Translations under genes and position numbers: made by a program | Assembly: GCA_021731365.1 (NCBI GenBank) | Contig: JAKFXL010000037.1 | Coordinates: forward strand, 126,037 to 190,036 | Reading direction: 5' to 3' | DNA: 64,000 nucleotides | DNA from: Gammaproteobacteria bacterium | Lineage (GTDB): Bacteria; Pseudomonadota; Gammaproteobacteria; Tenderiales; Tenderiaceae | Shown here: piece by piece, positions 12,217-56,930 of the stretch | Layout: every line of letters starts with the position of its first letter | How positions within the stretch are numbered: the first letter of the stretch is position 1 | Notes under the pieces: generated by a model | The model's input: the letters and a program-made list of their open reading frames with translations, nothing else | Database searches by the model: none | Told to the model about the DNA's origin: nothing

Positions 12217-15200
12217 ATGACTGATGACAAAGGTGTGGGCGGAAAATATATCGCTATTCCCATGTACGGATTTGACTATGTTCATGCCCCGTATGATGAC
12301 AGCGATAATAGTCCTGTTCATCTCTTTACTGGGCGTGATGAACTCATCAACCGGTTAGTATCACTGCTCGAAAGCAAACGGCGGCGGGGAAGTTACCTGA
12401 TCGCTGGATATAGAGGGGTTGGAAAAACCAGTGTGGTTAACAGGTCAATTGAAAGATTCAGCAATCCCAAAAACTCACGAAGTCGCAGTAATTCCCGAAA
12501 AATGTTGCTGCCCGAACCACCGATTGTTATCAGGATCAATCTTGGTGATAACAGTAGTTTGACACCCTTGGATATCTATTTTTCCATCGCAAGTTTTTTA
12601 AGTAATCAATACCTCAAGGGTGATGGCGAATCCGTAAAAAAGGATATTGATGTTCTGATTGTAAGAATGGGACATGAGATAAGTGAGACAAAGGGGCATG
12701 GATTTGGCGGAAATGGTGGAGTTGAGATCGACTTCAAGGCGGTGAAGGCGAATGTGGGCGGTTCCGGAGAAAAAAACTGGAACTCTAACATGAGACGTTT
12801 GCCGATCTCTCCGCGAGAGGCTGAGGAGCAAATCCTCGACATACTGAAACGGGTCAATAAAAACCGTAAAGTCATATTTATTTTTGACGAGATAGATAAG
12901 CTGTCAAATGCAGAGGAGTTTTTTGGGGTTGATTGCCAGGAACGAAACCCCAGTCTCTCTTTACAAGATAAACATGCCAGAATAAATACGCTTTTGGGTT
13001 CTCTGAAAAACTTTATTACTACCGCAGAAGCGACTTTCTTCTTCATATCGGGGCGTGAAACCCTGGACAGATACTATTCTGAAACAGGCAGCCCAAACTC
13101 GTTATACCAGAGCTTGTTTGACAGTGTATTCGAAGTCCCCAGCCTACTGACTGATGAGAGATACTATTCATCACGTGCCTGGAGAATGGCCTTGCTGATT
13201 GAAGAGTATCTTTGCCGAAGGCTTATCCCCTCCTCTGGAAAAGCTGAAGTAGAAAGAGAGAACTACACGCTTAAAAAGCACCACTCAAATTTTATAAAGG
13301 AAAATTCAGACTGCCACTCTGATGGTCGTCTGTTGGTAAGCACACTGCGTAATTTTGTCTATTATTTAACTTTTCACTCATGGGGAAATCCCAAACGATT
13401 GGCATCCATCCTTGAAAGTTTCATTGTGCCTTGGTCCAGTCTTTCCAATAGGAGAGACGATATCCGAATCATCGGCAAAGATCCCGGAAGAAGTGAAGAT
13501 TGTTTTTGGCTGTTTTTTGATGTCAATCAATTGCGTGCTTTCTCGCTTGCGGCTGAATTGGTATCAATTTTTGAACACCAGTTCAGCCGGGAAATTACTA
13601 AAATTAGCGACAAGCTTACGGTGACGAGTCTGGCATCAATCCAGTTCATATTGAAACACCACTCCAACGGTTTTACCCGTGAATCTCTTCGGCGAATGTC
13701 GGAGGCGATGAATGTACATCGTTCGCCAGCACTAAATGCAATTGTTGATGATCTGTTAACTCAGACCTTCAAACCGTATATACGCAGGGTAAGAAATGGC
13801 CTCTACCGCTATCGTTTCCACAGTGGCTTTGAGCAAGAGCTACGTTACATCAGCCATATTAGTGAGTTGGAATCGGCGGCCTATAATTTTTCTCTGGATG
13901 CCATGAGACACGTCAAGTTTTTCTTTGAGGCAGGACTAAAGAAAGAGATAGATGAACAGGGGCGAGCCGCCGTCTGGAGCGCTCATGTTACGCTTGGTGA
14001 TATTTGTGCGCTTGAACAATCCTACAATGAAGCTTCCATGCACTACTCTTCAGCTATTCGAATCTTAAAGGGAAAGGTAGGTCAGTCAGAGCGTGACTCC
14101 GATATGGAATTCTTGATGCAATATGTCGAAGTCATGGTTAAAAACGGTGATCTTGAAGAGCATAGACAGAACTATCATCATGCTGCTGCCATTTACACTG
14201 AGGCTGAAAGAGCCGTAGAGGCGGTTATTAAAAAAAATAGTGTGATGAGGTCTAAATTGCTGATGGGGGATTCAAAGTGGGATATGTTGAAGCAACCCTA
14301 TTGGGCTGCACGCTATTTGTCGATGAAGCGCAGCCCCTCTGCCAAGAGATGTAACGCTTCACGTCCGGATTGGCTCTACAAAACGTCAGATCTCAGGTTT
14401 GATTTGCGTGCGGCTACGCTCGCGTTCTTTTCTGGCAATATGGAGGCCGCAGAAAAACATTACGCTACTATTTCTAAAAATGTTCCATCCGATGAGCTTC
14501 CCTGTGAGCGAAGCGCCTATGTTGTCGCCAATGGTCTTGTTGGTGGCGCGGAAACAAAACTTGTGAGAATCGCCCATAGGTTAGCCAAAAATCAATACGC
14601 ATCTGACAAAAAACGCAAACAGACAGATCCCGATGGGCCTCTTCATCCGGGGTTTCATGATGAGCTGATCACGATACTTAAACGCCAGTTTGTCGAGGAG
14701 GATGGCAGGTCTCGCCCTTCCGACATCACAGGAGATTTATGGAGAGCGGCCTGCATTTTGGAGGAGAGTCACATCTACATTAGTGCCGCCATTGTGCATA
14801 TGAAGATAATTGCTTACCTCAGTACTATGCTGGATGCGTTTGGAAAAAATAACGTAGTGAGACTTGATGGCGTTCCCGAGAAGTGTAATGAGCAAGTACA
14901 AAAAAGCGGAGAAGCAGCCTTTCGTTGCATCAACTGTGCACGACAGCTTGAATCAACCCAGCCAGGAAAAACCCTCTTGTCTCGTGATTTTGATACCAGT
15001 GCCCAATGCGATAGAGGAAATCTTGGTATTCCCTGGTTATTTGACGCTCTATTGGGCGTTGGTGGTGAATTGACCGAACTACCACTTGAAGAACAGGTTT
15101 ACTGGCAGCAATCATTTTGGGCGCATAAGCTTGCGGCTATTCTCACCTGGGCGCGATTCACCTTTTACAAAATGAATAGGGATGAAACAGGGGGGAACGA

Positions 15201-15993
15201 TACTGGGAAGGAGTACATACATTTGATTCTCCCCTCCGATTTCAGCACACTTTCCGTTAGGCCGACAATTATTATGCGCTGGCTGTACGCAAGGGATATG
15301 AGGCAGCGATGCCATGTTGGTTTTTTTGGGAGGCAAGGCGATGAGTTGAGCAAGGATGGGTTGTCACACGCCAATCTTCTGGCTTTGATTGGACGTGATC
15401 CTGACGATAAATATGAGCGACACATGACGCAATTGAAGGCGTGTGCTCCTCTTATGAATGCTTATAATGGGTGCGAGAGCCTCTATTTTTCCTTGACGGC
15501 AATTCGAGTGATTTCGCGGAGGAATATGGATCTGATTATTCCGCGTACCAGCCAGATCTATTTTGTTCAGTGGGAGATATTGCTCAATCTTTTGCAGGCG
15601 CTACTGAAAAAAGAGAGATGTCATTCGGGTGCCATGATGGATGAGTTGAGATCGGTGAGAGAGATCTCATTTTTCCTGCAACGAACACTTATCAGAATCA
15701 ACAAGATGGTGGGGTCTCATGAGCGAATTCCCCCCACCCATTTTGATTATGAAAGTATCTATTTGAAGCTGTGCGAATCTTTGGATAGAGCTGCCAGTCT
15801 TACCGATCCGACCAATCGTGCACGTACAGGCATATTTCAAAATAAGCATTATTGCCATGACGATTATAGTGATGCCGATTTTTCCATGGATTACACACTG
15901 GCTTATATGAATACACCGTCAGCACTGTTCCTGCGAGAGAAGGTACAAAGAGATCATGAACAGTTTAAAAATGAGCTGAGTAGATCTCAATAG
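12217..15993 (+). CDS. Large P-loop NTPase (AAA/STAND-like) with TPR-like C-terminal region
   Basis: Not recognised as a named gene. In 1258 residues, the N-terminal third is a P-loop NTPase: GRDELINRLVSLL precedes Walker A GYRGVGKTS (residues 64-72) and Walker B VIFIFDEIDKLS (Asp224-Glu225), followed by a sensor-like FFISGRETLDRYY. This order resembles Cdc6/ORC and STAND ATPases. The middle has an HTH-like helical part. From about residue 560 on, helical pairs with TPR character occur (ALEQSYNEASMHYSSAI, NYHHAAAIYTEAERAVE). No transmembrane segment, nuclease or TIR motif is evident. It stands alone between lpd and IS remains, and by eye it is more AT-rich than its neighbours, which suggests acquisition. 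A defence or signalling role is inference. Confidence 0.8.
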   Translation: MTDDKGVGGKYIAIPMYGFDYVHAPYDDSDNSPVHLFTGRDELINRLVSLLESKRRRGSYLIAGYRGVGKTSVVNRSIERFSNPKNSRSRSNSRKMLLPEPPIVIRINLGDNSSLTPLDIYFSIASFLSNQYLKGDGESVKKDIDVLIVRMGHEISETKGHGFGGNGGVEIDFKAVKANVGGSGEKNWNSNMRRLPISPREAEEQILDILKRVNKNRKVIFIFDEIDKLSNAEEFFGVDCQERNPSLSLQDKHARINTLLGSLKNFITTAEATFFFISGRETLDRYYSETGSPNSLYQSLFDSVFEVPSLLTDERYYSSRAWRMALLIEEYLCRRLIPSSGKAEVERENYTLKKHHSNFIKENSDCHSDGRLLVSTLRNFVYYLTFHSWGNPKRLASILESFIVPWSSLSNRRDDIRIIGKDPGRSEDCFWLFFDVNQLRAFSLAAELVSIFEHQFSREITKISDKLTVTSLASIQFILKHHSNGFTRESLRRMSEAMNVHRSPALNAIVDDLLTQTFKPYIRRVRNGLYRYRFHSGFEQELRYISHISELESAAYNFSLDAMRHVKFFFEAGLKKEIDEQGRAAVWSAHVTLGDICALEQSYNEASMHYSSAIRILKGKVGQSERDSDMEFLMQYVEVMVKNGDLEEHRQNYHHAAAIYTEAERAVEAVIKKNSVMRSKLLMGDSKWDMLKQPYWAARYLSMKRSPSAKRCNASRPDWLYKTSDLRFDLRAATLAFFSGNMEAAEKHYATISKNVPSDELPCERSAYVVANGLVGGAETKLVRIAHRLAKNQYASDKKRKQTDPDGPLHPGFHDELITILKRQFVEEDGRSRPSDITGDLWRAACILEESHIYISAAIVHMKIIAYLSTMLDAFGKNNVVRLDGVPEKCNEQVQKSGEAAFRCINCARQLESTQPGKTLLSRDFDTSAQCDRGNLGIPWLFDALLGVGGELTELPLEEQVYWQQSFWAHKLAAILTWARFTFYKMNRDETGGNDTGKEYIHLILPSDFSTLSVRPTIIMRWLYARDMRQRCHVGFFGRQGDELSKDGLSHANLLALIGRDPDDKYERHMTQLKACAPLMNAYNGCESLYFSLTAIRVISRRNMDLIIPRTSQIYFVQWEILLNLLQALLKKERCHSGAMMDELRSVREISFFLQRTLIRINKMVGSHERIPPTHFDYESIYLKLCESLDRAASLTDPTNRARTGIFQNKHYCHDDYSDADFSMDYTLAYMNTPSALFLREKVQRDHEQFKNELSRSQ

Positions 15994-16169: not shown

Positions 16170-16740
16170 AAACCACCGGTTTTAGCCGGTCAGCTTTAGC
16201 TGCGAAAATAGGCTGCACGAAAGGAGGTGCGGCATGGACTACAGGTACGGCAGTCATACGGTGTATCAAATTGAGTACCACTTTGTATGGGTAACGAAGT
16301 ATCGACACAAAGTATTGAGAGCAGAGGTGGCGGAGCGAGTTCGAGATCTGGTGAGGGAGACGTGCGAAGCCTTTGAGATCAGGATAGTAAAAGGTGTGGT
16401 CAGCAAGGATCATGTCCACATTCTGGTCAGTTGCCCGCCGACGATGGCGCCGAGTGAGATCATGAGGCGGATCAAAGGTCGCACATCGAGCAAGCTGTTT
16501 GAAGAGTTTCCGCATGTAAAGAAGAAGTATTGGCGCCGGCATTTCTGGGCAAGAGGATACTTCTGTGCCACGGTAGGCCAAATGACGGAAGAGATGATCA
16601 AGTAATATTTGGAGCATCACTTTGAGCCTAAGTCGAACGATGATTTCAAGATGGAACCCGATTAAGACGCGTCGTTTAGACGACGCGTATCCGGACTTTC
16701 AGTCCGTAATTCAAACCCACCGGCTTTAGCCGGTGGTTGT
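16170..16740 (+). mobile_element. IS200/IS605-type insertion element (tnpA only)
   Basis: The left end carries a hairpin ACCGG-TTTTAG-CCGGT (16175-16190). The right end carries a near-identical hairpin, CCACCGGC-TTTA-GCCGGTGG (16717-16736). Subterminal imperfect palindromes of this kind are what TnpA of this family binds. Two more hairpins lie in the right end: ACGCGTCG/CGACGCGT (16667-16688) and CGGACT/AGTCCG (16692-16706). There is one gene, tnpA, and no tnpB. Exact cleavage points cannot be fixed from one copy, since these elements make no target duplication. Confidence 0.8.
16234..16665 (+). pseudogene. tnpA: IS200/IS605 TnpA transposase, broken by a stop codon before the catalytic Tyr
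   Basis: Y1 HUH single-strand transposase. The reading starts at ATG 16234 behind AGGAGGT. HUH motif: DHVHILVS. C-terminal helix: TEEMIK, then TAA (16603-16605), then in the same frame TAT TTG GAG CAT CAC (Y L E H H ...) up to a natural stop at 16663-16665. In family members this position normally reads K/Q-Y-L/I-E, where the Tyr is the nucleophile (compare Y132 of ISDra2 TnpA in QKYIE). One change, probably CAA to TAA, therefore removes the catalytic tyrosine and the last 20 residues. Unless the stop is read through, the protein is inactive. Confidence 0.88.
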
Positions 16741-17040: not shown

Positions 17041-17051
17041 GGAGGATGGTT

Positions 17052-18788
17052 ATGACAACAAGGCGTAATTTTATCAAGATGGGGGCGGCTGTCGCAGGGG
17101 CGGGGCTTTTTTTGCCGGTCATGAAATGGAATTCTTTGACAGCATATGCGGCATCTCCAGTCCTGACTAAGTATCTGGATCAGTTGCCGATGATTCCGAT
17201 GGTATCTGGGAATGCGTTGACATCATTGACGATGGCACCGAGTACCCATTCGTTTCATAGTACTTTGGCGGCAAGACCGACGTGGGGTTATGGCGGTTTG
17301 AGTTATCTGGGGCCAACGATTGAGACTATGCGTGGTTCTGCCATCAGTTTTAATGCGGTGAATTCGCTAGGTGCTCATCCGTTTGCGTCATCGATTGATA
17401 CCAATGTTCACGGTACTGTGTTGGCGGATAAGACGAATCCTCGTGTGTCGTTGCATTTGCATGGTGGTAATACGGAGCCGAATAGTGATGGTTATCCTGA
17501 GGATACGTTTACACCTGGGCAGCCGCATCAATTTGGTCCATATAACTACAATAATAATCAGGAGGCCGCGACGCTTTGGTACCACGATCATGCGGTTGGG
17601 ACGACGCGATTGAATGTGATGGCAGGGTTGGCAGGTCTCTATCTGATTCGGGACAGTGATGACCCCATTGGTGGTAACGGTCCGCTTGGTTTGCCTGCAG
17701 GTGCCCCTTACGAGGTGCCTATGATAATTCAGGATCGCATGTTGAATCCGGATGGTTCGCTGTTTTATCCGCCAGCTCCGTGGGCACCGGAGTTTTTTGG
17801 TGATGTGTCTACGGTGAATGGTAAGGCCTGGCCTAATTTGAATGTGGATAGGACGCTGTATCGTTTCCGTGTTGTTAACGGTTCTAATGCCCGGTTTTAC
17901 AACCTGAGCCTTTCAAATAAGAAGATGAAGATCATTCAGATTGGTACGGATGGCGGTATGTTAAATGCGCCGGTATCACTTTCTGAGCTTTTGCTTGCAC
18001 CAGGTGAGCGTGCTGATCTGCTGATAGATTTTTCGGGTGTTGCGCCAGGTACCCAGATTGTTCTGCAAAACGATGCAGCTGCGCCATATCCGGCGGGCGG
18101 TTCTGGTATTGCCTTGCCGGAGATTATGCGCTTTACGGTAAAGGCGGGGGCTGCTGTTCCAAAACCGATTCCAACACGGTTACGGGTGAACAATCCTCCC
18201 ATTGTGCCCATTGCGGTGCGGCCGGTTAGGCAGCGCTATTTGACGTTGGTGGAGGTGATGGGGGCGGCGGGGCCGTTGGTGGCGTTGTTGAATTATGTCT
18301 ATTGGCCTGAGCCGCTGGCTAATCCGGCATTAATGGAGCGCCCCGCTGTAGATACGGTTGAACAGTGGAATATTATCAATCTGACGGGCGATGCCCATCC
18401 TATTCACTTGCATCTTGTGCAGTTTCAGATACTCAACCGGCAGCGGTTGAATACGGCTAAATATGTGAGTGCATATAACGCTACGGGACCACGCACGGTG
18501 CTTGATCCAATGGCGGCCGGTGGTCCAACTGTGCCAGCCGGTTATCCGGCCATTGATCCAGCACCGTATCTTAGAGGCAATCCCAAAGCTCCAGACTTGA
18601 ATGAGCAGGGCTGGAAGGATACGGTTCAGGCACCACCAGGGGCAGTGACACGTCTTATTGTGCCGTTTGGTGCCCAGGCGGCCCCTAATCTGCCGTTTGG
18701 TAATTCGTTTAAGGGGCGTTATGTCTGGCACTGTCATATCCTGGAGCATGAGGATAACGAAATGATGCTGCCTTATGAGGTGGTGTAG
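17052..18788 (+). CDS. Multicopper oxidase, Tat-exported
   Basis: Periplasmic copper oxidase of the CueO/CotA/bilirubin-oxidase superfamily, coupling substrate oxidation to reduction of O2 to water. The 578-residue protein starts with a twin-arginine signal (TTRRNFIKMG, then a hydrophobic stretch to about residue 32). All four copper-binding segments are present: HLHGG, LWYHDHAVGTTR, HPIHLHLVQFQIL and HCHILEHEDNEMM, the last with a Met as likely axial T1 ligand. The ATG at 17052 lies 6 bases after GGAGG; an ATG at 17046 directly abuts that site and is less likely. Substrate unknown: copper(I), manganese or phenolics are all possible. There is no copper-resistance neighbour; the gene sits alone, convergent with the next gene. 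Confidence 0.9.
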   Translation: MTTRRNFIKMGAAVAGAGLFLPVMKWNSLTAYAASPVLTKYLDQLPMIPMVSGNALTSLTMAPSTHSFHSTLAARPTWGYGGLSYLGPTIETMRGSAISFNAVNSLGAHPFASSIDTNVHGTVLADKTNPRVSLHLHGGNTEPNSDGYPEDTFTPGQPHQFGPYNYNNNQEAATLWYHDHAVGTTRLNVMAGLAGLYLIRDSDDPIGGNGPLGLPAGAPYEVPMIIQDRMLNPDGSLFYPPAPWAPEFFGDVSTVNGKAWPNLNVDRTLYRFRVVNGSNARFYNLSLSNKKMKIIQIGTDGGMLNAPVSLSELLLAPGERADLLIDFSGVAPGTQIVLQNDAAAPYPAGGSGIALPEIMRFTVKAGAAVPKPIPTRLRVNNPPIVPIAVRPVRQRYLTLVEVMGAAGPLVALLNYVYWPEPLANPALMERPAVDTVEQWNIINLTGDAHPIHLHLVQFQILNRQRLNTAKYVSAYNATGPRTVLDPMAAGGPTVPAGYPAIDPAPYLRGNPKAPDLNEQGWKDTVQAPPGAVTRLIVPFGAQAAPNLPFGNSFKGRYVWHCHILEHEDNEMMLPYEVV

Positions 18789-18835: not shown

Positions 18836-18867
18836 AACCCACCCTTCATCAGGGTGGGTTTTTTTAT
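18836..18867. terminator. Bidirectional rho-independent terminator
   Basis: A perfect 10-bp stem, AACCCACCCT (18836-18845) and AGGGTGGGTT (18851-18860), loop TCATC, followed by T residues on the plus strand. On the minus strand the A-rich left flank is weaker. It ends the multicopper oxidase transcript and lies just beyond the stop of the convergent gene at 18864. Confidence 0.85.
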
Positions 18868-20402
18868 GGTGCTGGTGTAGGTGCCGGTGTAGGTACAGTA
18901 GGTACAGGCAGATGGGCTACGGTTGAGAAAGGGTCGAAGGGGTTGATGATGTCTTTATCTTTACCTATTTCGATTTTAAATTGGTCGCCTACTCTTGGGT
19001 CATATATACGTGGTTCCTTGATTAGTTTGTATACATCGGTGGTGGCAAACTCATAACGGACCTCAGCACCACACTTTGTCCGTTCATCAGAATCAAATTT
19101 TGTTTCATCATCACATGTATCTGGCGTTACCTGTTCATGCCCCTGTTGTTGAAAACCCATGTCTTGATTGGTGCCGTAGGCATTTACTTTTTGTCCATCA
19201 GACCAACTGGCAACGATTGTATTACCCTTGTATTTTTTCTCGTATTCGATATTGCCTGCCTTAACCATCGCACCCACCATTTCAGATTGGAACATCTCAT
19301 ACCTGGCCAACCCAGCGTTGGGCGTGTGCCAACCTTCCTGTGTAATGGCCCTGTATTGAATGTAGTTTTGAATATAGTCGCGGGCCTTTATCAATCCGTC
19401 CCGGCCACTGCCAAAACTGCTGCTAAAGTTGTTCCGGAGTTTTTCTGCCTCTGAGAGGAGGTAGACCTTGGCGTTTTCCTTGGGGTCTGGGCCTATGTCG
19501 ATTGTTTCCCGTTGGGCGATTTCAAGATCGCGGTCGTCGTAGTCGAAACGCATTTCGGCAGTGACAACGATGTAGCTGTAGAGTGGATCGATATCCAATG
19601 ATTTAATGACGGTGTTGACGAAGTCCCCCAGTTCCACCCCTTTGTAGTCGTAAGAGCCTCTCCATATGTCGGTATAGAAGGTGGTGCCGGTGGTATTTCT
19701 GCTGGAGTCAGCCCATTTGAGGGGATCATCTGTTTCGTAGATTAACTGTTTGAGGCGTACTTTTTCTTTGGGGTCTTCAAATGCCCCTGTGCGGATCTTG
19801 TTTAAAAACTCAATGGAGGTGGCAGCTTGTCCGTTCATGTAAACACCTTCATCCGGTGCCAGACATTTTCCATTGTGTTTGCCGCAATTCATGCCTTGCA
19901 GGACTGAAACGCCACTGTTCTGGCCATTTGTTTTGACGTAACTTTCAGAGAACATGCCGACCTTGCTAAAGGTCTCACCAGCAACGGCAGCATCCGTTAC
20001 TATCTGCTGTATGTAACGCTCGCCCGTGGTGGGGTCTTCGATATTGCGCTGATAAAAACCGACATCCTGAAGTGCGTTGCTGCCGGTTAATCCGCTGGGC
20101 AGCGCCTGGGCTACCGGTCTTCCATTTGCACTGATCTCCCATTTTCCAAAATAGAAATTTTGCTGGCTGTTGGGGTTGACCAGATATTTGCTGGTATTGG
20201 GGAGAATGCCGGGTATTGCAATATCGCTGGCGGCATCAATAGGTGAAAACCCTTGTGATCCGGTTGGTCTGATAGGCGTAGGCGGCGTTTGTTGGGCAAG
20301 TACAGTATTAATACCTAATATACTAATGAATGCGGTGATGACGATAGCGGTTTGATGGCTAAAGTTCAGGTACGTCGATGGATCTTCTCTCTTTAAAAAC
20401 AT
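18864..20402 (-). CDS. Unrecognised secreted protein with a Pro-Thr tail
   Basis: 512 residues from the ATG at 20402, which follows GGGGGG on the minus strand; a longer frame to 20462 lacks support. After a short charged N-terminus there is a hydrophobic export signal ending near VLAQQ. The body is hydrophilic, with Asp/Glu-rich stretches, and contains a paired-Cys segment (MNCGKHNGKC) and a second one (DTCDDE...TKCGAE), which could form disulfides in the periplasm. The C-terminus is a low-complexity Pro/Thr/Ala tail (VPTPAPTPAP). I do not recognise a family. It is monocistronic, with AT-rich DNA upstream and a shared terminator downstream. Placement in the periplasm or at the surface is inferred from the signal only. 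Confidence 0.75.
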   Translation of the reverse strand: MFLKREDPSTYLNFSHQTAIVITAFISILGINTVLAQQTPPTPIRPTGSQGFSPIDAASDIAIPGILPNTSKYLVNPNSQQNFYFGKWEISANGRPVAQALPSGLTGSNALQDVGFYQRNIEDPTTGERYIQQIVTDAAVAGETFSKVGMFSESYVKTNGQNSGVSVLQGMNCGKHNGKCLAPDEGVYMNGQAATSIEFLNKIRTGAFEDPKEKVRLKQLIYETDDPLKWADSSRNTTGTTFYTDIWRGSYDYKGVELGDFVNTVIKSLDIDPLYSYIVVTAEMRFDYDDRDLEIAQRETIDIGPDPKENAKVYLLSEAEKLRNNFSSSFGSGRDGLIKARDYIQNYIQYRAITQEGWHTPNAGLARYEMFQSEMVGAMVKAGNIEYEKKYKGNTIVASWSDGQKVNAYGTNQDMGFQQQGHEQVTPDTCDDETKFDSDERTKCGAEVRYEFATTDVYKLIKEPRIYDPRVGDQFKIEIGKDKDIINPFDPFSTVAHLPVPTVPTPAPTPAP

Positions 20403-20462
20403 AGTGCCCCCCAATGCTTTTATGTTGCGCTGTCGTTTAATTGCGACGACAACAAGGCGCAT

Positions 20463-52662: not shown

Positions 52663-53080
52663 TAAGGTAGCCCAATTGGTTATCTTACTGGCGGCCATGG
52701 AACGTGAAGCGATGACCGCTAGCCCCCTTGTCAATTATTACTATTTTATGTGTTCTTAAGGAGAAAAAGCCTGGGGGATATACTTTAGGTATGATGTGGT
52801 TGTTCAAGTTGTTTTTAGCCGAAAGTTGATGGGGCCGGTATCGACTCATTGCAGCATTTTTTGGTTGGTGTGACCAATGTCAATCGCGGAGTAAATGACA
52901 GTAATGTTGCGTTTACGGCTAGTGTGAAACTCACAGATAATATTCAATATTTCATTTTTGAGGTCACGGACCGGGAATGGTGTGAGTTTTCTAGTTATCA
53001 GACACGGTATTATACAAAGGTTGATTTTTACTCAATTTTCTCGTATTTTCTCGTATTTAGTGCTTCCCGAGAGAATTCAG
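52663..53080. other. Intergenic region before the HTH-AAA-S8 operon
   Basis: About 420 bases without a good frame. It is AT-rich near its right end and has a 10-bp tandem repeat (ATTTTCTCGT twice, 53035-53054) just before the HTH gene, a possible operator. Confidence 0.45.
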
Positions 53081-53296
53081 ATGAACACTGACATTATTAC
53101 CATTAAAGAGGTCGCTGAATATTTGAAGCTGACTGAAAAGACGGCATATCGCCTCGTGGCGGAAGGAAAAATCCCCGGTTTCAAAGTAGGTGGTTCTTGG
53201 CGATTCACGCGTAGGGAGATTGACGCTTGGATTGCAAAGCAATTGAAACAACAAGAACACGATAAACAGCACCAAGGTCAGCGAGGTAAGTACTAA
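53081..53296 (+). CDS. Excisionase-type helix-turn-helix protein
   Basis: 71 residues. MerR-like winged HTH of the excisionase family: ITIKEVAEYLKLTEKTAYRLVAEGKIPGFKVGGSWRF is the classic pattern (residues 5-41, quoted in part here: TIKEVAEYLKLTEKTAYRL). Start at 53081 follows GAGAGAATTC. The last base of its stop codon is the first base of the AAA gene start, so the two are translated as a unit. It may repress its own operon through the repeat upstream. Confidence 0.85.
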   Translation: MNTDIITIKEVAEYLKLTEKTAYRLVAEGKIPGFKVGGSWRFTRREIDAWIAKQLKQQEHDKQHQGQRGKY

Positions 53297-54297
53297 TGGC
53301 TCAAGCCGACACATTAGTCGAGCTGGTGAAGGCTGCCAGCAGTGGAGACCAACAGTTATTTCGCCGAGTCGCTGAATCTTTGATTCAGGAGGAACGAAAC
53401 AAAGGACACCGTATTCTGGCGGATCGTTTGGTTAAGTCACTTCAATCCAGCCCTTCCTTTCAGCAGCGTGCAGCGGAGAGCAAAGCGGCGAGTAATGGCG
53501 GGGCGGCAACCAATGACCTGATTTTCGAAATTACCCCACAACGAACCCTGGATAGTTTGGTGTTAGCGGACAAAATACGTGCGCAGTTAGACGAGATGAT
53601 TGAGGAGCAGCACCGCGTGGAATTGCTGCATGCTCATAATTTAAGTCCTCGTCATCGTGTATTACTTGCGGGTCCGCCTGGTAATGGCAAGACAACACTG
53701 GCTGAGGCTTTGGCCACTGAGCTTATGGTGCCACTGATTGTGGTGCGTTATGAAACCTTAATCGGGAGCTATTTGGGCGAAACGTCAGCGCGATTGAAAA
53801 AACTAATCGACTACGCCAAAACTCGGCGATGTGTGTTGTTTTTTGATGAGTTTGAAACCTTGGGTAAAGAGCGTGGAGATACACATGAAACCGGTGAAAT
53901 AAAGCGGGTGGTCAGTTCGCTACTGTTACTAATGGATGAGTTACCTGATTACGTGGTGGTGGTGGCCGCAAGTAATCACCCTGAATTGCTGGATCGTGCT
54001 GTATGGAGGCGCTTTCAGTTGCGTATAGAACTGCCAACTCCAACTCGCGCACAATTATCGCAATTTATTGATTCGATTGGTGTGCACAGCCAAGTGAGTT
54101 TTGGTTTGGCCGCAGAAAGTATCGCCAAATGCTTACTGGGATTGAATTTTTCAGAGGTGGAGGAGTTCTGTCTGTCTGTTGTGCGCCGCGCTGTATTAGA
54201 TCATAAGGTGGATGACGCTAGGGCCATTACCAAACTTAAACTGGAGCAGTGGCGTAATCGATTAATGCCTGTTTCCACAGGAAGTCAGGATAGTTAA
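53296..54297 (+). CDS. ietA: AAA+ ATPase of an IetAS-like pair
   Basis: 333 residues. An N-terminal helical part (DTLVELVKAASSGDQQLF) precedes one AAA domain: Walker A GPPGNGKT (126-133), Walker B LFFDEFETLG (Asp184-Glu185), sensor-1 VVAASNHPEL and arginine finger in VWRRFQLRI. Close to classic AAA (FtsH/katanin-type) ATPases. An S8-family protease gene follows after 20 bases; ATPase plus subtilisin-like protease is the composition of IetA-IetS, a plasmid-borne toxin-antitoxin and anti-phage system. I know of this association from the literature; homology cannot be scored here. Confidence 0.78.
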   Translation: MAQADTLVELVKAASSGDQQLFRRVAESLIQEERNKGHRILADRLVKSLQSSPSFQQRAAESKAASNGGAATNDLIFEITPQRTLDSLVLADKIRAQLDEMIEEQHRVELLHAHNLSPRHRVLLAGPPGNGKTTLAEALATELMVPLIVVRYETLIGSYLGETSARLKKLIDYAKTRRCVLFFDEFETLGKERGDTHETGEIKRVVSSLLLLMDELPDYVVVVAASNHPELLDRAVWRRFQLRIELPTPTRAQLSQFIDSIGVHSQVSFGLAAESIAKCLLGLNFSEVEEFCLSVVRRAVLDHKVDDARAITKLKLEQWRNRLMPVSTGSQDS

Positions 54298-54317
54298 TTC
54301 ACAAGGAATAGTGGCTC

Positions 54318-56930
54318 ATGGCTGATCAATTACCGTTACTGGTATTTCCACAAAAACGGACTGTGCTTCCAGATGCGGGTCGTGGCTTTCCTGCAGGCAA
54401 GCCACATCTTCCGAGTCGTGACAAACAAATTCCCCGTGTTGGTCACCAGCTGGCTACCTTACAGCAGTCCTTTACTCAATATCAGGCTAGCCTAGCGGGT
54501 GTAGTAGCGGGTATGGAGCCGGAAACCGTGCTGGTAATGGAAATTGTGGGTAGCGTTAACGATTTCAAACAAGCAGTGGAGGCGGCTGGCTTAGAATGGT
54601 TAGGCGAGTGGGATCTTGAGGATATTGAGGCCGATGATGAGTTTTATGAGCTTAACAGTAAGGGACAGCGCACAAACAAGCCGATCCAAGGCAGGCTATT
54701 TCTGTCGATGGGCAATCAAGCAGGGTTGCAAGAGTTGCTGTCACTATGGGGTCAATGGTCTCAGAACAAGCCACTGCCTTACGGTAAAGGTAAGTGGGCT
54801 GATGTGTTTGCGCAGTTGCGCATGATTCGGCGTTGGAGTATTGAGGAGACCCTGCACGAGACAGGCATGATTGAACGCTGGCAGGATTTTATAGACCCAA
54901 TCATTCCCGATCAGCCAGTTACCTTTCAAATTGAACTGTTCTATCGTCGAGCGCTGGCAAAACGCCAACAAAATGAGGGCGCTATCCGCCAGCTTTTGGA
55001 GAATTCTGGTGGCCGTGTGCTGGGTAATTTTATCGATATGGGGGAAATTGCGTTTCACGCTGCCAAAGCGCAATTGCCTGCGCGTTGCATTCAGCAATTA
55101 CTGGCTGAGATAGACCGACCTGAATTTGGGATCGACATTCAGCTCTTTAATTTCTCCGGAATTATGTATTTTCGCCCAACCGGACAGAGCCTGTCCGCTG
55201 CCGATGAAAATGAAGGTGAACCAGTTGAATTTATTGTGGGTCAACCCGACTTGCCGCCTGTTGCTGCCTTGTTGGATGGCGCACCGCTCCTGATGCACGA
55301 CGCATTGAAAGACAGGCTACTTTTTGATGACCCCTTTGAACTAGAGCGGCTGTACCAACCGGGAGAGCGTAAGCACGGTACCAGCATGGCTTCGCTGATT
55401 GTGCATGGTGATCTGAGTCAAGGGCAGGATGAACCGTTGCGTAGAAAGGTTTATTGCACCCCCATTATGCAACCCGATCCCAATTCCCGTGACAAGGGTG
55501 AACACATGCCGGATGAGGTGTTTTTTGAAGACCGGATTCATCTTGCTGTGCGCAGAATGTTTGAAGGTGCGGGTAATATACCCGCTCAGGCACCCACTGT
55601 TAGGGTGATAAATCTTTCAGTTTGTGACCCTGAACGCCCCTTTATTCATACTCCCAGTCCATGGGCTAGGCTGTTAGATTGGTTGGCCTGGAAATACCGG
55701 GTATTGTTTTGTGTCAGTGCTGGGAATTTTCTGGATCCGGTCACTATGGGAATAAACCATGCTGAGTTTTCCGCGCTGCCTGATGCTGAAAAGGTACAAC
55801 AGACGATTAAAGCGATGGCAGCAGCGCTTTCCTCGCGTCGGCTATTATCTCCCGCTGAATCGCTTAACGCCATTACAGTGGGTGCATTGCACAACGATGA
55901 GTCGGGCAATTTTCAGCTACGCAACCGCCTCGATCTAATGCCAGAAGAAAATGGGTTCAGTCCGGCAATGCGCGTTGGTCATGGTTTTAGACGTTCAATC
56001 AAGCCAGAGGTATTGTTTCCGGGTGGCCGCCAACTTTATCAAACACCGATTGCCAATCGTTCAACCAAATATGTATTAGATGGCTCCAAAGTGCCACCCG
56101 GCCAACATGTTGCCTGCGACAGTGTACGGCAAGGTGATCTGTCTAACGCTTTGTACACGAGAGGCACGAGTAACGCCACTGCTCTGGCAACCCGAAGTGC
56201 CGCCCGTATTTATGACATGCTGACTGAGCTACGAGATCAAGGCGGTGAAGATTTGCCAGAATCATTGATGTCTGTGTTGATGAAGGCGCTGCTTATTCAC
56301 GGAGCAAGGCAACCCGAAAATATTAAACAACAACTGGGTCTAGCATTAAAGAATGAGGGTAATGCACGTACATTCAAACGAGTCATCTCGCGTTATATTG
56401 GTTATGGTGTGGCTGACATAGAGCGAGTTCTAGCTTGTACCGAGCAGCGTGCCACAGTACTTGGATGTGGTGAAATTCGGGAAAACGAGGTGCATGAGTA
56501 CGCTTTTCCGTTGCCTACTGGCTTGTCTGCACAAAAACTGTGGCGACGACTTGTGGTTACTCTTGCATGGTTCTCACCTATTAACCCCGATCATCGTAAC
56601 CTACGTGAAGCTAAGTTGTCGCTGGAGCCGGGTGGAAGCAATTGGGGGGAGGGATCATTAAAGCTAAATCGCCAGGATGGTGATCATACACAGGTGCTAC
56701 GAGGAACGATCCAGCACGAAGTTCTTGAAGGTACAAAGACTATTGCCGCTTATCAGGATGGTGAAATGTTGCGAATCCGAGTGGTCTGCAAAAAAGATGC
56801 AACTGCTTCACTTGACGAACTTATTCCATATGGGCTAGCAGTAACGCTTGAGGTGAAAGAAGATATTAACATCCCCATATACCAGCAGATTCGTGAAAGG
56901 ATCAAACCGCAGGTTGTTGTTGGTCGGTAG
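54318..56930 (+). CDS. ietS: Subtilisin-like (S8) protease of an IetAS-like pair
   Basis: 870 residues, no signal peptide, so cytoplasmic. An N-terminal region of about 290 residues without known motif; then an S8 domain with Asp320 (AALLDGAPLL), His353 (KHGTSMASLIVHGD) and Ser618 (TRGTSNATALATRSA), and an Asn in CVSAGNF for the oxyanion hole. The C-terminal region is a beta-rich domain of about 200 residues. Catalytic triad intact. Its partner ATPase is adjacent. A toxin or effector protease that is held in check by the ATPase is the model for such pairs; here inference. Confidence 0.8.
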   Translation: MADQLPLLVFPQKRTVLPDAGRGFPAGKPHLPSRDKQIPRVGHQLATLQQSFTQYQASLAGVVAGMEPETVLVMEIVGSVNDFKQAVEAAGLEWLGEWDLEDIEADDEFYELNSKGQRTNKPIQGRLFLSMGNQAGLQELLSLWGQWSQNKPLPYGKGKWADVFAQLRMIRRWSIEETLHETGMIERWQDFIDPIIPDQPVTFQIELFYRRALAKRQQNEGAIRQLLENSGGRVLGNFIDMGEIAFHAAKAQLPARCIQQLLAEIDRPEFGIDIQLFNFSGIMYFRPTGQSLSAADENEGEPVEFIVGQPDLPPVAALLDGAPLLMHDALKDRLLFDDPFELERLYQPGERKHGTSMASLIVHGDLSQGQDEPLRRKVYCTPIMQPDPNSRDKGEHMPDEVFFEDRIHLAVRRMFEGAGNIPAQAPTVRVINLSVCDPERPFIHTPSPWARLLDWLAWKYRVLFCVSAGNFLDPVTMGINHAEFSALPDAEKVQQTIKAMAAALSSRRLLSPAESLNAITVGALHNDESGNFQLRNRLDLMPEENGFSPAMRVGHGFRRSIKPEVLFPGGRQLYQTPIANRSTKYVLDGSKVPPGQHVACDSVRQGDLSNALYTRGTSNATALATRSAARIYDMLTELRDQGGEDLPESLMSVLMKALLIHGARQPENIKQQLGLALKNEGNARTFKRVISRYIGYGVADIERVLACTEQRATVLGCGEIRENEVHEYAFPLPTGLSAQKLWRRLVVTLAWFSPINPDHRNLREAKLSLEPGGSNWGEGSLKLNRQDGDHTQVLRGTIQHEVLEGTKTIAAYQDGEMLRIRVVCKKDATASLDELIPYGLAVTLEVKEDINIPIYQQIRERIKPQVVVGR

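Follow-up and report, generated by a model that had tools for sequence, protein, structure and literature searches.

A rare STAND-like NTPase family with predicted membrane segments inside the ATPase domain of most relatives of a gammaproteobacterial member

Avs and bNACHT are large single-gene anti-phage STAND proteins with a C-terminal sensor half, and the KAP NTPases (Kidins220/ARMS) form a family implicated in phage exclusion. In ARMS/Kidins220 the transmembrane segments are located between Walker A and Walker B (PMC10707181). STAND NTPases as a class (Apaf-1, CED-4, NLR/NACHT, MalT) possess a P-loop, a Walker B motif, a sensor-1 arginine, a GxP motif, a winged-helix motif and superstructure-forming repeats; motif definitions for STAND/NLR ATPases, including sensor-1 arginine and GxP, are given in PMC2323615. 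Prokaryotic Orc/Cdc6-like conflict ATPases have been described in the neighbourhood of KAP, REase, TIR and NACHT genes (PMC10853773). These ATPases and BrxC of BREX both represent Orc/Cdc6-like ATPases in mobile settings.

The window, i.e. the whole stretch of 64,000 nucleotides of gammaproteobacterial DNA analysed here, contains a gene whose product has the P-loop, Walker B, sensor-1 arginine and GxP motif in common with the STAND class, together with a putative winged-helix motif and putative C-terminal repeats. The protein differs from this class in the lack of an effector domain (common, though not universal, in the class), in a Walker B of the DExD kind as in Orc/Cdc6, and in the predicted membrane helices that most of its relatives possess inside the ATPase domain. 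With Avs and bNACHT it has in common the organisation as one large STAND protein with a putative C-terminal sensor half, but it lacks a PADLOC match and an N-terminal nuclease or other effector. Like KAP NTPases, its relatives place predicted transmembrane segments between Walker A and B; the window copy, in contrast, possesses neither a transmembrane segment nor a KAP_NTPase match, and displays GxP, a winged-helix-like region and a TPR-like half. Structurally, the ATPase core comes closest to Orc1/Cdc6 initiators and TnsC-type AAA+ proteins, from which the window protein differs by a score far under the initiator cut-off, by its long helical half and by the absence of a replication or transposition partner. 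BrxC is likewise among the structural matches; unlike BrxC and the Orc/Cdc6-like conflict ATPases, the window family is single-gene, with no partner genes adjoining.

The gene, its motifs and its predicted structure

The STAND-like NTPase gene (Table 1) is a frame of 1258 codons without internal stop, and its position is exactly that given in the first-pass annotation, which was made from the window sequence alone. A chance reading frame is excluded, since homologues align over the full length with 38-43% identity. Upstream neighbours, named by reading their translations, are glnB/PII, sucA, sucB and lpdA. Downstream follows an IS200-type Y1 transposase ORF (16234-16605, Pfam 1.3e-43) with an in-frame stop near its end; the corresponding IS200-type element (16171-16736) is bounded by matching short palindromic ends and lies outside the ATPase gene. 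The isolated position between housekeeping genes and an IS remnant, reported in the first pass, is therefore borne out. The composition had also been described as unlike that of the neighbours, which holds for GC (~45% compared to 52-55% upstream) but not for codon usage, where the gene is outside the 12 most deviant of 32 long ORFs of the window. Consequently, composition is a weak sign of foreign origin. The most deviant codon usage among the 32 ORFs is found in a multicopper-oxidase-like gene (17046-18788), and the interval 18864-20462 encodes a 532-aa protein without Pfam or PADLOC match.

Table 1. Features of the STAND-like NTPase gene, with nucleotide positions in the window
Feature	Position	Strand	Evidence
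STAND-like NTPase gene with helical C-terminal half (P0001)	12217..15993	+	intact ATG-started frame, full-length homologues
Walker A/P-loop GYRGVGKTS, residues 64-72	12406..12432	+	nearly unchanged in relatives
Site of the predicted membrane pair of relatives, residues 132-143, no hydrophobic segment here	12610..12645	+	alignments, hydropathy
Walker B VIFIFDEIDKL, residues 219-229	12871..12903	+	FDExDKL invariant in 7/7 aligned members
Sensor-1 strand and arginine (R280), residues 273-281	13033..13059	+	Arg in 6/7 members, Lys in L005
GxP motif GNP, residues 390-392	13384..13392	+	G and P invariant in 7/7 members
Winged-helix-like region with FTRESL, residues ~465-545	13609..13851	+	alignment; low AF2 confidence
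All-helical TPR-like putative sensor half, residues ~545-1258	13849..15990	+	low-confidence model, weak TPR matches
Conserved C-terminal block xKxYxHDDxSDxxFxMDxTL, residues 1199-1231	15811..15909	+	alignments of homologues

Both Walker motifs are intact, as had been read from the sequence, and Pfam AAA_16 matches residues 37-232 above its cut-off (E=3.9e-8). Weaker Pfam matches comprise AAA_22, ATPase_2, AAA and nSTAND1, and TPR models match marginally (E ~0.1-0.2). All NCBIfam matches remain sub-threshold; the Orc1/Cdc6 initiator model TIGR02928 reaches 17.8 bits against a cut-off of 181.3. A sequence search detected no significant relative among PDB sequences. The Pfam and NCBIfam scans revealed no effector or signalling domain at either end, in agreement with the earlier statement that neither an effector nor a named family is recognisable. 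No hidden C-terminal effector was found either, the C-terminal model being helical and too poor for naming a fold.

The motif alignment comprises seven members, whose identity to the window copy falls to 20%, and runs from Walker B up to where the helical half begins. FTRESL of the window protein is comparable to the NOD1 winged-helix consensus FTQEEV (PMC2323615 Table 2); together with a conserved block in the alignment it marks the putative winged-helix region, for which AF2 confidence is <50. The AlphaFold model was built from three sequences and is moderately confident in the ATPase core (most blocks ~60-85) and low elsewhere. For the region from residue ~545 onwards, helices are predicted throughout, at a low mean pLDDT of 46. 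The best solved Foldseek neighbours of the ATPase-core model are Orc4, Orc1/Cdc6, TnsC, CED-4 and BrxC; because the TM-scores are low, these matches indicate a class of fold rather than a family. The Cdc6/STAND-like NTPase with TPR-like sensor half proposed in the first pass is thus supported by the motifs, by the family searches and by Foldseek, and the reading as a STAND-like switch, the firmest part of the functional assignment, is very probable.

A decayed or non-functional gene might be suspected from the GC below that of the neighbours, the missing effector and the broken transposase next to it. Decay is nevertheless extremely improbable, as the frame is intact over all 1258 codons, all catalytic motifs are kept and conservation extends to near the C-terminus.

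Relatives and predicted membrane segments inside the ATPase domain

Seven homologues were recovered, four gammaproteobacterial ones with ~38-43% identity and three distant ones. A scan covering the genomes of 84,980 species, which can miss members because only six short peptide patterns were used, yielded L003 (1372 aa) and L004 (1431 aa), both homologous over the full length, and the distant L005 (1752 aa). Sampling at class level added G085 (L006, split over two contigs), G087 (L007, 1316 aa) and a short distant match in G183, and sampling at phylum level added G480 (2336 aa; L046 244-7254). Further genome sampling with the family profile yielded no more members. The family is real, and rare in the collections searched. 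The term "orphan", used for the gene in the first pass, accordingly applies to its solitary gene context but not to its sequence, which has homologues.

Pfam recognises the family as generic AAA_16 only. PADLOC contains no defence model matching the window protein at E up to 10, nor one matching L003 or L004, and membership in a known defence family (Avs, bNACHT or others) was rejected for lack of a PADLOC match. A literature search by architecture, covering part of the literature, found no description of the family.

The gap between Walker A and Walker B varies within the family. It spans 156 residues in the window protein and 155 in L005, in both cases with no hydrophobic segment by hydropathy. 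In L003, L004, L006 (G085) and L007 (G087) it spans 186-244 residues with two hydrophobic segments, the second one of L004 being borderline at 1.41. A new point is that in all four close homologues two predicted transmembrane helices lie between the Walker motifs, a feature that could not be seen in the first pass from the window sequence alone. The four pairs occupy one common site, flanked by the helix that follows strand 2 and by a conserved helix preceding Walker B. G480 has a gap of ~840 residues with about nine or ten hydrophobic segments: approximately nine before strand 2 and one more at the common site, where by alignment a loop of ~200 residues separates it from a second stretch. All transmembrane segments are hydropathy predictions, and topology is likewise predicted only.

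In predicted layout the family is KAP-like, but we do not file it as KAP. According to one alternative, the family is a divergent KAP-type, membrane-associated branch whose window member secondarily lost its membrane segments. The predicted segments that four relatives and G480 have between the two Walker motifs, arranged as in ARMS/Kidins220 (PMC10707181), would fit, and the ATPase of the distant relative G183 reaches the KAP_NTPase cut-off (20.6 vs 20 bits). However, KAP_NTPase has no match to the window protein at E up to 10 and does not appear in the family lists of the close relatives at E up to 1, and GxP, winged helix and TPR-like half indicate STAND. The seven-row tree does not separate loss of the pair in the window lineage from its never having been gained, and a KAP branch of this kind appears quite improbable.

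G183 (L047 7092-10401) encodes an ATPase of this type and, after it in a different, overlapping frame, a winged-helix-like region together with Ser/Thr kinase and FHA domains; the change of frame may be a sequencing error or real. This linkage suggests that the wider family is used in signalling. It also bears on a second alternative, a STAND ATPase of the MalT kind that acts in signalling or transcriptional regulation, adjusts host gene expression to a metabolite and has no role in conflict. The core architecture of NTPase, winged helix and TPR-like solenoid is shared with MalT, and kinase and FHA as in G183 are typical of host signalling. On the other hand, no DNA-binding domain is found at either end of the window protein (the Pfam and NCBIfam scans contain no MalT-like C-terminal HTH), no conserved target gene adjoins the homologues, and near relatives are without the gene. 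We regard regulation of the MalT kind as unlikely.

Distribution and loci

All 10 family-mates of the window genome lack the gene; one of them possesses only a different ATPase, of 399 aa, with a match around the P-loop. The two order-mates of G085, the three order-mates of G087 and those classmates of G480 that were sampled, four of them congeneric with G480, lack the gene as well. Every copy occupies a different locus. The window copy follows lpdA, L003 lies near rpoS among transposases, and L004 adjoins a gene for a very large, repeat-rich protein of secreted type. The G087 copy is located between hflD/PIN and rlmB-rnr; the PIN-domain gene (L048 9306-9788, weak PIN_3 match) is directly upstream of it. 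At ~6 kb from the distant homologue L005, an ATPase with sub-threshold AAA_16 match adjoins a TPR-repeat protein (L005 731-3542), which looks like a separate STAND-type pair.

The G085 copy is located between kdsA and eno in reverse orientation. In its order-mate G314, pyrG-kdsA-eno is continuous, with a kdsA-eno gap of ~220 bases. The comparison is consistent with a single-gene insertion and falls short of proof, because the gene order in G085 has been reconstructed from two contigs and the two genomes diverge in their genes past eno as well. In the family of the window genome the empty-site comparison is uninformative, because the genes after lpd vary among relatives.

Patchy presence at different loci fits horizontal transfer; it speaks for one gene spreading on its own and against a housekeeping role or core function. 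A housekeeping context conserved in all relatives, raised in the first pass as evidence against a sensor, was examined: all contexts differ and close relatives lack the gene. A housekeeping role was rejected on these grounds. No copy was found in phage, plasmid and viral-contig collections, and transport on known phages or plasmids was rejected for those searched.

A further alternative is a TnsC- or Orc-like accessory ATPase that belongs to a mobile element and travels with insertion sequences, or a remnant of such an ATPase. TnsC and Orc among the Foldseek matches point in this direction, as do the IS200-type transposase adjoining the window copy and the transposases flanking L003. However, the other homologue loci contain different transposases or none, a transposition partner is missing, and the IS200-type element of the window is located outside the gene, with palindromic ends of its own. 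A helical half of 700 residues would be unexpected in such an ATPase as well. This origin is highly improbable.

Possible role, and an anti-phage pair in the same window

The best explanation as a whole, to which we assign an even chance, is a solitary STAND-type switch acting most likely in conflict. It would comprise an Orc/Cdc6-like ATPase core, a GxP helical subdomain, a winged helix and a TPR-like alpha-solenoid of ~700 residues. The solenoid would most likely keep the ATPase as an ADP-bound monomer until a ligand is bound, and ATP binding would then lead to ring assembly of the kind known from Apaf-1, CED-4 and NLR proteins. In relatives with the predicted membrane pair, assembly would take place at the inner membrane, possibly disrupting it, since the pair lies inside the ATPase domain. 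The window copy, without the pair, would form a soluble platform acting through a partner or a surface; its output might come from a trans-acting partner or from the helical half itself.

The most likely role of such a switch is in conflict inside the cell, directed against phages or mobile elements. This role is suggested by the patchy distribution, by mobility as a single gene and by the usual company of such ATPases, with a probability somewhat short of even. The neighbours do not support it, as no homologue is seen in a defence island: genes next to the homologues are mostly housekeeping genes, and among the loci examined none of the homologues sought beside defence genes, as the first pass had proposed, was seen there. 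The anti-phage sensor suggested by the first-pass annotation is plausible but unproven: the window copy has no adjoining defence genes and its homologues are not seen among such genes, neither an effector nor a PADLOC match was found, and the phage, plasmid and viral-contig collections lack the gene.

If the proposed role is right, the family would represent a very rare single-gene immune ATPase with its membrane part built into the ATPase fold and not at an end; KAP NTPases are the other group known for this layout. It would then link STAND and KAP NTPases, each separately implicated in anti-phage immunity. A more specific proposal, which we consider unlikely, is that a membrane module inside the P-loop fold, whose size differs among members (no helix, two helices or about ten), is the built-in effector of an undescribed STAND/Orc-like branch. 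On sensing an invader, an ATP-driven ring would perforate or depolarise the membrane, and the window member would be a natural soluble variant, showing what the switch does without the membrane module. The occurrence of soluble and (by prediction) membrane-bearing members in one family would allow a direct test of the insert as effector.

Independently of the STAND-like gene, the window contains a complete IetAS-type anti-phage pair at 53296-56930. It was rejected as a partner of the STAND-like ATPase because of the distance of ~37 kb, and there is no evidence of a functional link. Its IetA ATPase matches PADLOC at E=6e-146 and its IetS subtilase reaches 1064 bits. A small HTH DNA-binding gene (weak mad1 match, 4.3e-11) is located just before IetA, and the whole group spans 52958-56930.
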